IMG/VR virus record: IMGVR_UViG_3300035212_000133
Location: 1 to 21,179 of that record
Source: a virus
Reading direction: 5' to 3' (one strand)
Length of the DNA stretch: 21,179 nt
Shown here: in pieces, positions 4,030-14,727 of the stretch
Position numbering within the stretch: the first letter of the stretch is position 1
Layout of the letters: the number at the start of each line of letters is the position of its first letter
Translations under genes and position numbers: made by a program
The notes under the pieces: model-generated
Told to the model about the DNA's origin: nothing
Databases searched by the model: none
The model's input: only the letters and a program-made list of their open reading frames with translations

Positions 4030-4064
4030 TTTGTTAATATATCCGATAAAGCTATATATATTTG
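4030..4064 (+). promoter_or_regulatory. Early promoter of Bacteroidota type
   Basis: A perfect -7 element TAnnTTTG (TATATTTG at 4057-4064) is preceded 23 bases upstream by TTTG (4030-4033). This fits the published Flavobacterium/Bacteroides consensus TTG-N17-23-TAnnTTTG. The 16 bp at 4055-4070 recur exactly at the promoter before the ERF gene. Transcription would start near 4070, giving a short leader to the ATG at 4087. Confidence 0.75.
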
Positions 4065-5061: not shown

Positions 5062-5204
5062 AATACTTACTAACGTACTACGTCGGAACTAAAGCGGTTC
5101 AAAGCTGGCGTTTTTATTCTAAAACTATGGCCTATGCCATGAAGTCGGAACTAATATATACAAACAACTTTAACTTAGGCAAGTTTAAAATAACGGAAAT
5201 ATGA
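5058..5204 (+). CDS. Small hypothetical protein
   Basis: This gene encodes 48 residues, with an N-terminal beta-like stretch (YLLTYYVGTKAVQSWRFYS) and then FNLGKFKITEI. I chose ATG 5058 because it overlaps the previous stop as ATGA; the longer frame upstream is the shadow of the preceding gene. The compact alternating pattern suggests a small beta-alpha-beta fold. No family is recognised. Confidence 0.55.
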   Translation: MKYLLTYYVGTKAVQSWRFYSKTMAYAMKSELIYTNNFNLGKFKITEI

Positions 5205-5626
5205 AAAATAGAATAGCATTAATACACGAACTTATAGAGGTATACGATTTAACAAGCAAATGTAGGGATCGCGGACTAATATACAAACGCGCATACCTAT
5301 ACAATGAACTACGAACTAGTGGCTTTAGCCTTTTGCAAATAGGCGAGATATTCGGGAAGCATCACTCCACAATTATTCACGGCTTACGAACGCATAAAGA
5401 CCTTACGGGCTACGGCGACGAGGATTATAAACACGAAACATACCAGTTAAAAGAACAACTAGAGGGTAGCGTAATAATTTACCCAAATGAAACCAGACAA
5501 GTGCGCGACTTAAAAACGGACCTATTAGATGCTAGAACAATACGCGACTTTAAACGTATTCGTCGACGTGTTAAATTAGGTGTTTACGAAAAACTTTTAG
5601 CTGAAAGCAACCTTTTGCAAGAATAA
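5201..5626 (+). CDS. DNA-binding protein with DnaA domain IV-like helix-turn-helix
   Basis: Residues 41-63 read GFSLLQIGEIFGKHHSTIIHGL. This closely matches the DnaA domain IV signature, where an 'x-I-G-x-x-F-G-R-x-H-S/T-T-V-x-H' helix pair contacts DnaA boxes. The protein has only 141 residues, with no AAA+ domain, so it is the DNA-binding module alone. The C-terminal half (residues 75-141) is charged and rich in Arg/Leu (DLLDARTIRDFKRIRRRVKL) and may be a second helical domain. Placed immediately before the replication genes, it may recognise the phage origin, recruit or block host DnaA, or act as a repressor. Function is inferred. It is ATGA-coupled to the preceding gene and closes the first early operon. 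Confidence 0.65.
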   Translation: MKNRIALIHELIEVYDLTSKCRDRGLIYKRAYLYNELRTSGFSLLQIGEIFGKHHSTIIHGLRTHKDLTGYGDEDYKHETYQLKEQLEGSVIIYPNETRQVRDLKTDLLDARTIRDFKRIRRRVKLGVYEKLLAESNLLQE

Positions 5627-5630
5627 ACGT

Positions 5631-5638
5631 TATATTTG
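5631..5638 (+). promoter_or_regulatory. -7 element of a promoter for the structured RNA
   Basis: TATATTTG fits TAnnTTTG exactly and lies five bases after the stop of the DnaA-like gene. Transcription would begin around 5641-5646, just where the first hairpin of the structured RNA starts. A TTTG at 5614-5617 is only 13 bases upstream, shorter than usual, so the -33 part is weak. Confidence 0.55.
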
Positions 5639-5643
5639 TAGAC

Positions 5644-5732
5644 GAGTTGGCTGGACACCATAAACTCAAAAGGAATTATTTACCCTCAAACCGAATTGCA
5701 CGTCCAGCCGCAACGAAGTTTGGGGGTTTTTT
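5644..5732 (+). ncRNA. Candidate structured small RNA: two hairpins joined by a kissing loop, ending in a terminator
   Basis: Hairpin 1 pairs GAGTT (5644-5648) with AACTC (5663-5667) and has a 14-base loop. Hairpin 2 pairs ACCCTCAAAC (5682-5691) with GTTTGGGGGT (5718-5727), then a symmetric CGAA/CGAA internal loop able to form tandem G-A pairs, then TTGC (5696-5699) with GCAA (5710-5713), capped by a 10-base loop. GGCTGGAC (5649-5656) in loop 1 is perfectly complementary to GTCCAGCC (5702-5709) in loop 2, giving an 8-bp kissing interaction. Hairpin 2 runs directly into TTTTTT, so it is also a rho-independent terminator. A TAnnTTTG box sits just upstream. The element could be a free sRNA of about 90 nt or an attenuator for the replication genes. 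I do not recognise a known RNA family. Confidence 0.65.
5682..5732 (+). terminator. Rho-independent terminator formed by hairpin 2 of the structured RNA
   Basis: A 10-bp lower stem (one U-G pair) is followed by six T residues at 5727-5732. Its large upper part contains the kissing-loop sequence. Termination here would separate the first early operon from the replication genes, unless pairing with hairpin 1 or an antiterminator changes the fold. Confidence 0.7.
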
Positions 5733-5748
5733 ATTTTAAAATATTTAT

Positions 5749-6369
5749 ATGAGCGGGTGGATTAAATTACATAGACAAATTTTAGACTGGGAATGGTACG
5801 ACGACCATAATGCATTTCGTTTGTTTATTCATTTGCTTTTAAAAGCTAACCATAAAGAAAAAAAATATAGGGGTATGTTATTACAATCGGGTACTATTTT
5901 AACAAGTCGAGACATTCTATCTTTAGAAGTTGGCCTAAGTGTACGTCAAACTAGAACCGCACTAGATAAGCTAAAATCGACCAACGAATTGACCATTAAA
6001 ACAAGCGGTCAAGGTACTATTATTCAAATAGTTAACTACCAAAAGTATCAAATAGAGACCAGCGAAACGACCAACGAGCGACCAGCAAACGACCAGCAAA
6101 CGACCACTAACAAGAATGTAAAGAAAGAAAGAAATATATTTATACGCCCAAGTGTTCAAGAAATTGACGCTTATTGCTTAGAGCAAAACTTGCAAATAAA
6201 CGCCCAAGGCTTTATAGACTATTACGATAGTAACGGGTGGAAAGTAGGTAAAAACCAAATGAAGGACTGGAAAGCTACGGTAAGACGTTGGGCAAAACCT
6301 AAAGAACAAATAGAAATGGTACACGATCCACTTGTTGAAGCTGCTAAAAGACTCGGTTATGTTAAATAA
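5749..6369 (+). CDS. Phage replication initiation-like protein (winged helix plus C-terminal MKDWKA domain)
   Basis: The N-terminal part (about residues 1-100) has the layout WIKLHRQILDWEWYDD...FRLFIHLLLKANH...GTILTSRDILSLEVGLSVRQTRTALDKL, a winged-helix pattern common in phage replication and primosome organiser proteins. A low-complexity Thr/Asn/Gln linker (about residues 103-125) follows. The C-terminal part (about 130-185) contains IDAYCLEQ, then IDYYDSNGWKVGKNQMKDWK and VRRWAK, a motif set shared by many phage replication proteins. Such proteins bind origin DNA and load the helicase. The next gene encodes a RecA/DnaB-fold ATPase and overlaps by 11 bases, fitting an initiator-helicase pair. 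It begins 16 bases after the structured RNA's T-run, so the RNA may control it. Confidence 0.75.
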   Translation: MSGWIKLHRQILDWEWYDDHNAFRLFIHLLLKANHKEKKYRGMLLQSGTILTSRDILSLEVGLSVRQTRTALDKLKSTNELTIKTSGQGTIIQIVNYQKYQIETSETTNERPANDQQTTTNKNVKKERNIFIRPSVQEIDAYCLEQNLQINAQGFIDYYDSNGWKVGKNQMKDWKATVRRWAKPKEQIEMVHDPLVEAAKRLGYVK

Positions 6370-13576: not shown

Positions 13577-14727
13577 TGGACCTAAAGTCAACCATAGTCT
13601 TTGAACGAAATTACGACGCGCTTTATAATAACGAGGCGCGTTTTATCATTAACGAGGGGGGTAGCCGTTCAAGTAAGACGTATTCACTTTGCCAGCTTAT
13701 AATGGTGTATTGCTTACAGAACCCGCAAAAGGTTGTTAGCATCATTCGTAAGACTTTCCCAGCGTTACGGGCAACGGCTATGCGCGACTTTCTTGAGGTG
13801 CTAAAAGAGGCGGGTGTCTACGAAAAGACGAGCCATAACATGAGCGAACACATCTACACCTTCCCTAACGGTTCGATAGTAGAGTTCTTTTCAGTTGACG
13901 ACGAGCAAAAAATAAGGGGCCGCAAGAGGTCTATAGCATGGTGTAACGAGGCGAACGAACTATTCCTAGACGACTTTACGCAGTTGAACATGAGGACCGA
14001 AAGCAAGCTAATCTTTGATTACAACCCGAGTGATTCTACAAGCTGGCTATACGAACTACCAAAACACGAAAGCATACTAATAAAATCTACGTATAGGGAC
14101 AACCCCTTTTTGCCCGACACAATCAAACGCCAAATAGAAGACCTCAAACGTACCGACGAGGCGCTATACCAAATCTACGCACTAGGCGAACACGCTATAA
14201 GCAAAAGCAATATATATTCAAACTGGTCATTTCTACCACACCGACCCTCTAGATTCACTCAGTTTGTATACGGCTTAGACTTTGGGTACAACCACCCAAC
14301 CGCTTTAATGCGTATATACTGGCACGAAAAAGACATATTCATAGAACCCGTAATATACGAAAGCTACCTAACTACCTCGAACCTTATTGATCGTATAGCC
14401 TCGCTAGACGTCGAAAAGGAAACAGAAATAATAGCCGACTACGCACGCCCAGAAATTATAGCCGAAATGAACAACGCGGGGTACAACGTAAGGAACGCAA
14501 ACAAGTCAGTCAAGAAAGGTATCGACAATATAAAAACATTCGGGGTGTATGCCATGAACGACAAGAACCTAGAAAAGGAATACCAGAATTACAAATGGAA
14601 AAAAGTAGGCGACCAGATTTTAGACGAACCAGTAAAGCTATATGATGACGCCATGGATGCCATACGTTACGCGACGACCTACATAAAAGAACAATACTAT
14701 ACAGACGACGCCTATTTTGCGTTCTAA
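13576..14727 (+). CDS. terL: Terminase large subunit (PBSX/Terminase_3-like)
   Basis: This 383-residue protein has a Walker A-like GGSRSSKT (residues 28-35), a Walker B with catalytic glutamate (IAWCNE, E125) preceded by IRGRKR, and a C-terminal RNase H-type nuclease domain starting YGLDFGYNHPTAL (D235). Further acids are at D288 (IADYARPE, with E293) and D357-D358 plus D361 in LYDDAMDAIRYA. These cover the ATPase motor and the nuclease that cuts concatemers. It is slightly short for the family but all key residues are present. The Walker A ends in SSKT rather than GKT, as in other PBSX-type terminases. Tail rather than head genes follow, which is unusual; the portal is at the other side of the window. 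Confidence 0.92.
   Translation: MDLKSTIVFERNYDALYNNEARFIINEGGSRSSKTYSLCQLIMVYCLQNPQKVVSIIRKTFPALRATAMRDFLEVLKEAGVYEKTSHNMSEHIYTFPNGSIVEFFSVDDEQKIRGRKRSIAWCNEANELFLDDFTQLNMRTESKLIFDYNPSDSTSWLYELPKHESILIKSTYRDNPFLPDTIKRQIEDLKRTDEALYQIYALGEHAISKSNIYSNWSFLPHRPSRFTQFVYGLDFGYNHPTALMRIYWHEKDIFIEPVIYESYLTTSNLIDRIASLDVEKETEIIADYARPEIIAEMNNAGYNVRNANKSVKKGIDNIKTFGVYAMNDKNLEKEYQNYKWKKVGDQILDEPVKLYDDAMDAIRYATTYIKEQYYTDDAYFAF

Follow-up and report, generated by a model that had tools for sequence, protein, structure and literature searches.

Several described RNAs bear on the RNA reported here. Phage P4 CI and the c4 RNA of P1 and P7, the latter filed as Rfam RF01695, are antisense RNAs of prophage immunity in proteobacterial phages. 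The put element of phage HK022 is an antitermination RNA made of two hairpins with which an early transcript opens, acting in cis to let RNA polymerase resist later terminators, and the packaging RNA of phi29 has complementary loops that covary between phages and pair between molecules. In the I-complex plasmids, antisense copy control works through stem-loop I of RNAI and the repZ pseudoknot (PMC10724649, citing Asano & Mizobuchi 1998).

The window, which is the whole stretch analysed (IMG/VR record IMGVR_UViG_3300035212_000133, positions 1-21,179), contains between two replication-related genes a short interval that the initial annotation had described as a kissing-loop RNA with its own promoter box and terminator. 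All of the elements so described are present and correct to the base. The features of this region are as follows, with P1 and P2 denoting the two hairpins and A1 the alignment of relatives introduced below.

5201-5626, + strand: upstream gene for a DnaA C-terminal helix-turn-helix-like protein (PF08299, E 9e-7, just under the curated cut-off)
5631-5638, + strand: promoter -7 box TATATTTG, of the Bacteroidota TAnnTTTG type, without TTG at -33
5644-5667, + strand: hairpin P1, GAGTT (5644-5648) with AACTC (5663-5667), closing a 14-nt loop
5649-5656, + strand: loop-1 kissing sequence GGCTGGAC, read from the sequence and seen in covariation
5657-5662, + strand: loop-1 bridge ACCATA (family AYYATA), conserved in A1
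5668-5681, + strand: linker AAAAGGAATTATTT (family AAGRNRTTATT), conserved in A1
5682-5727, + strand: hairpin P2, with an outer and an inner stem
5682-5691 and 5718-5727, + strand: outer stem of P2, ACCCTCAAAC with GTTTGGGGGT
5696-5699 and 5710-5713, + strand: inner stem of P2, TTGC with GCAA
5692-5717, + strand: symmetric internal loop, CGAA (5692-5695) facing CGAA (5714-5717), with possible tandem G-A pairs
5702-5709, + strand: loop-2 kissing sequence GTCCAGCC, the exact complement of loop-1 positions 5649-5656
5728-5733, + strand: T-run of an intrinsic terminator, six T, read from the sequence
5749-6369, + strand: downstream replication gene, by tblastn a relative of phage DnaD-like helicase loaders
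6065-6106, + strand: three 11-bp direct repeats (CGACCAGCAAA type) inside the replication gene

The product of the downstream gene matches the 'DnaD-like helicase loader' of Cellulophaga phage phi18:3 (tblastn, E 4e-29), and the 11-bp repeats within it are possible iterons of an origin of replication. The minimum-energy fold of the window RNA includes both P1 and P2, at -23.1 kcal/mol. By itself this nested fold is not unusual (z = -1.22); the information sits in the complementarity of the two loops, because nested folding gives no score for such pairing. Elsewhere in the window there is a single 7-nt copy of loop 1, which lies within a gene, and there are no 8-nt copies of either loop.

We fetched IMG/VR loci through relatives of the replication protein and of the DnaA-like protein, and found that the same gap in most close relatives holds the same architecture with quite different but still complementary loops, such as CTCTCACA/TGTGAGAG, GGTCCGAC/GTCGGACC, CCTTCGAC/GTCGAAGG and AGTCTCAA/TTGAGACT. 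A descriptor composed of P1, its loop, P2, the loop complement and the T-run gave 91 matches in these loci, about 49 of them distinct, whereas 342 kb of shuffled sequence yielded no match. Together with the covariation described below, this excludes a chance origin, which had been thought hard to credit from the window alone. With pattern scans the set grew to 190 distinct RNAs from 298 loci, with 76 kissing sequences among them; the RNAs also have the TAnnTTTG box beside P1, and a few entries may be false since the final scan was scored more loosely. The window RNA possesses the P1, the P2 and the covarying loop-loop helix by which we define the family, and covariance model R2 gives it 82 bits, with an identical copy of the window RNA among the model's input.

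Cultured phages carry the RNA as well. The covariance model finds it in Cellulophaga phi18:3 (E 9e-9) and Tenacibaculum Gundel_1 (E 1e-10), inspection finds it in Cellulophaga phi19:1 with loops GTACGAC/GTCGTAC, and it is present in the Flavobacterium phages of the mumin type. The T-runs of Gundel_1, phi18:3 and phi19:1 are interrupted. In morran9-1 (MN812219) the hypothetical ORF deposited at 14157-14300 spans the RNA region, probably through misannotation.

The pairing was examined in alignment A1, which holds 52 subtype-A RNAs, the window's subtype, less than 90% identical to each other and aligned by sequence only; for the covariation counts the pseudoknot was supplied explicitly. Proposed pairs are formed in 95.1% of cells, compared with 69.4% after shuffling and 35-50% when the partners are slid by 1-3 columns, and the covariation score of 0.706 falls to 0.215 with shuffling and to 0.125 or less with sliding. 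The percentages paired come partly from selection, as the descriptor that found the candidates demands pairing; this does not affect the number of two-sided changes or those relatives that protein homology alone brought in. Two-sided changes occur in 24 of the 27 pairs. In the kissing helix, paired in 98.8% of cells, they affect seven of the eight pairs, the remaining pair being A-U without variation; P1 (91.5% paired) has such changes in all five pairs, the outer stem of P2 in 8 of 10, and the inner stem in all four. Every row has G-A on the 5' strand of the internal loop, for which the usual form among the relatives is UGAA/GGA. P2 is rich in G-U pairs, which fits an RNA of the + strand rather than sites in DNA.

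The cultured Flavobacterium phages show the compensatory loop changes individually: the pair is GTGAGACG/CGTCTCAC in filifjonk9-1 and hattifnatt9-1, GTGAGAAG/CTTCTCAC in morran9-1, and GTGGAACG/CGTTCCAC in mumin6-1 and snusmum. Across the family the loop-loop helix is 6-9 bp long. The comparison with relatives upholds the structured RNA, its kissing helix, the tandem G-A loop, the promoter box and the terminator, and those relatives that keep the flanking genes change their loops with compensation, where uncompensated change had been named in advance as evidence against the structure.

The promoter proposed in the initial annotation is upheld in part. Across 105 non-redundant upstream regions the box is nearly always TATATTTG and is preceded by T in 86%; box positions that played no role in selection are T/A in 92-94%, only part of the motif having been selected on. 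P1 begins 0-6 nt after the box in these 105 relatives, and the predicted transcript is likely to begin with P1 or close to it. The usual TTG/TTTG element at -33 is absent both from the window and from the 105 non-redundant relatives, and we therefore infer the promoter from the -7 box and its spacing alone and regard the assignment as incomplete. Two more TATATATTTG boxes lie in the window at 4057 and 9251, in near-identical surroundings (TTTATATATTTGCATATA); they precede genes at about 4233 and 9289, have TTG 21-26 nt upstream, and are likely ordinary operon promoters.

At the other end of the RNA, 191 of 198 relatives have a run of at least six T, and a start codon follows within 30 nt of the run in 170 of 196 (median 18). 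A further -7 box between the T-run and the gene was found in just 4 of 198, so that transcripts of the operon probably read through the RNA and its terminator. The downstream genes mostly encode replication proteins, whose several N-terminal types are connected by BLAST matches; the others, often placed after one small gene, encode an ATPase or loader, primase-like, ParB-like and other proteins, and in Gundel_1 the gene following the RNA is an annotated antirepressor. Most of these gene names rest on sequence resemblance and neighbourhood rather than on family scans.

We found no Rfam 15 match at the gathering threshold in the window or in 11 loci that include relatives belonging to both subtypes, and a permissive search of the window returned just mir-553 and a Plasmodium RNA, both far below threshold. 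A known Rfam RNA is accordingly rejected, in keeping with the first impression that the family was not a recognised one. No description of this RNA appeared in the literature searched, a body that excludes most subscription journals. In cellular genome contigs the replication protein had no match, none of the pattern matches in genomes had the promoter and structure of the family, and a covariance search of about 700 host-side genomes, with few candidates scored in each, gave one false positive at an integrase gene. Cellular or prophage copies are thus unsupported by these host-genome searches, which were shallow. On the comparative evidence we conclude that the predicted RNA is an undescribed family of structured RNAs of about 90 nt in phages of marine and freshwater flavobacteria.

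A second form of the RNA, subtype B, has a loop 1 of 6-9 nt and an AGUA facing GAA in P2, an arrangement that we take to resemble the loop-E or sarcin-ricin consensus. Subtype B can occupy the same gap with the same neighbours (L013, L017, L023); blastn searches for it in cultured phages gave nothing useful. In 17 of 42 subtype-B contexts the downstream gene has at its start a copy of the RNA's own loop-1 sequence, compared with 2.2 after permutation and a maximum of 7 in 1000. Counted per loop sequence, which partly controls for shared ancestry, the copy is present for 9 of 17 subtype-B loop types where 0.70 are expected, a level reached in 0 of 5000, and other gene starts are not enriched. 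The nine are AAGCAG, AATGCAG, AGGCAG, ATGCAG, GAGCAG, GGGCAG, GTCGCAG, GTGCAG and GTTGCAG; one of the two subtype-B scans required CTGC in loop 2, a rule that favours GCAG-type loops and ignores the gene start.

The copy commonly forms the loop of an A/T hairpin of 5-9 bp that reaches the start codon, here called P3, as in L449 (tcattttaAAGCAGtaaaatgg), L467 (ttatttaaGAGCAGttaaatgg) and L477 (cataaAATGCAGttatg). The P3 stem is just 2 bp in the GTTGCAG group, and L450 has none by strict count. The start-codon copy varies together with loops 1 and 2, and because the loop-1 sequence recurs there, loop 2 could have either of two pairing partners, the gene start or loop 1 of the same RNA. More than half of the subtype-B contexts have no start copy, and in L090 an AGGCAG RNA lies beside a GTTGCAG gene start. 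For subtype A, the window included, a start-codon copy is rejected; its frequency is about that of chance, with L169 the sole case among about 107 items.

In its way of working, the phage RNA appears most like the control of the initiator by kissing RNAs in I-complex plasmids. Both would place a loop-loop kiss beside a replication initiator gene with specificity set by a few loop bases, and in subtype B the loop partner lies near the initiator start with possible competition for one loop. Unlike the plasmid system, the phage RNA involves no counter-transcript, its complementary loops being on the same strand and in one RNA; it ends in its own terminator and has no Rfam match. Complementarity of a loop to a site that may control initiator translation, the downstream start codon, is seen in 9 of 17 subtype-B loop types and not in the window's subtype. 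Opposite-strand transcription, the mark of CopA/CopT and RNAI, was not found, since box, G-U usage and terminator all fit the strand of the replication gene, and for this reason we do not file the RNA with plasmid antisense copy control.

Among the phage RNAs, P4 CI and c4 share with it a short structured RNA upstream of a replication or ant gene and complementary segments within the same transcript. Unlike them, the present RNA has no Rfam match and its mumin-group carriers are described as lytic (PMC7077304). The lytic habit of these carriers and the empty, if shallow, host-genome searches weaken a prophage-immunity reading. HK022 put is similar in opening an early phage transcript with two hairpins and in acting in cis; no such kissing helix is known for it, and it is not itself a terminator. 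The phi29 packaging RNA likewise has complementary, covarying loops, while the flavophage RNA is tied to replication genes and not to packaging.

We favour, with moderate confidence, the reading that the RNA controls expression of the replication operon it heads, a reading drawn from sequence and position. Of the roles first offered (a phage small RNA, a copy-control-like RNA, or a terminator or attenuator for the replication genes), control of the replication operon fits best, and copy-control-like action gains support from the start-codon loop copies of subtype B. The RNA would start at P1 and end at P2, and each phage would have a private loop code. In subtype B, loop 2 would pair with loop 1, locking the RNA on itself, or with P3 at the start codon, and the competition of P1 and P3 for loop 2 would set the amount of initiator made. 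In subtype A the candidate steps are termination, read-through or translation, and the RNA could act in cis, on mRNA that has read through, or in trans once terminated; the purpose of this subtype is inferred from its position, from an architecture common to both subtypes and from the ability of subtype B to take its place in the gap. Only tentatively do we go further and propose a three-partner kissing switch, by which loop 2 might choose between its own first hairpin and the copy at the initiator start codon, metering replication. If such a switch exists, a private RNA code in each lytic flavophage could set compatibility between co-infecting phages.

A purely transcriptional leader is an unlikely alternative: here the kissing structure would set termination at the RNA's own T-run, as an attenuator, or modify RNA polymerase in put-like antitermination, and the subtype-B copies would be secondary. 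Such a leader agrees with an RNA that begins just past the -7 box and ends in a terminator before the operon, with the near absence of a promoter between RNA and gene, and with the lack of a start-codon copy in the window's subtype. It leaves the loop-1 copies at the start codon in 9 of 17 subtype-B loop types unexplained, nor would one expect a put-like element to finish with a terminator of its own. We hold it at least as doubtful that the RNA is a trans-acting small RNA with a host or distant phage RNA as target, its place in the operon setting only the timing. The RNA's own promoter box and terminator suit this idea, as do loop sequences such as TCTCAC that recur across structural types. 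The position before replication genes is nearly constant, however, and 7-8-mer kissing matches elsewhere in the fetched phage DNA number 6 and 8 against 5.0 and 6.2 permuted, with no excess at other gene starts (30 vs 32.3). An antisense seed acting on the phage's own genome is rejected on the same counts.

That the RNA serves phage DNA replication directly, as a primer, origin transcript or protein scaffold and not as a regulator, is improbable: it adjoins the DnaA-like and initiator genes, and the 11-bp repeats are only a few hundred bases away, yet it also precedes primase-like, ParB-like and Ant genes, and the start-codon copies would have no explanation. Inverted and direct copies of one short sequence around a promoter box could be repeated sites for a DNA-binding protein, but the stems covary independently and have many G-U pairs in the + strand orientation, which makes an operator very improbable. 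An ordinary terminator with chance complementarity, for which the unremarkable nested fold might speak, deserves almost no credence, being refuted by the covariation and further opposed by the lack of shuffled matches and the compensatory changes in cultured phages.

Control of the replication operon, as favoured here, suggests that the RNA may govern when the virus begins copying itself, and that the use of loop-loop RNA codes at the initiator gene is common to plasmids and lytic phages. The family is large, has very strong covariation, is absent from Rfam and occurs in phages of ecologically important bacteria. Its cultured carriers (the Flavobacterium mumin-type phages, phi18:3, phi19:1 and Gundel_1) make it directly testable, and its loop pairs form a natural collection of kissing interactions, perhaps mutually orthogonal.

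Each record of about 30 kb that the covariance model hits contains a single hit. By the descriptor, 11 loci have two RNAs, never with the same loop code (L207, L240, L247, L262, L302, L560, L569, L573, L608, L637 and L651), the copies often about 2 kb apart. The second copies in L207 and L240 belong to a third structural form, for example GAAGCGTGAGAACTTC...TCTCACGC and AGAAGCGTCGGAAACTTCT...TCCGACGC, which has a TCTCAC/TCCGAC motif in loop 2; subtype A has the motif in loop 1. We also observed a conserved leader element, GGTAATCTTNAAACC, a small hairpin that usually follows AGTTAYY; the kissing-loop RNA lies on one side of it and, on the other, the start codon of a small gene with a MANVKL-like product (L437 at 13991, L581 at 249, L112 at 2762, L568 at 11937, L585 at 1219, L637, L651 and others). 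Many phages have this arrangement, cultured ones of Cellulophaga and Flavobacterium among them. Bare GGTAATCTTNAAACC is found at 84 places, and in 14 of these the RNA, or its promoter and T-run, lies just upstream.
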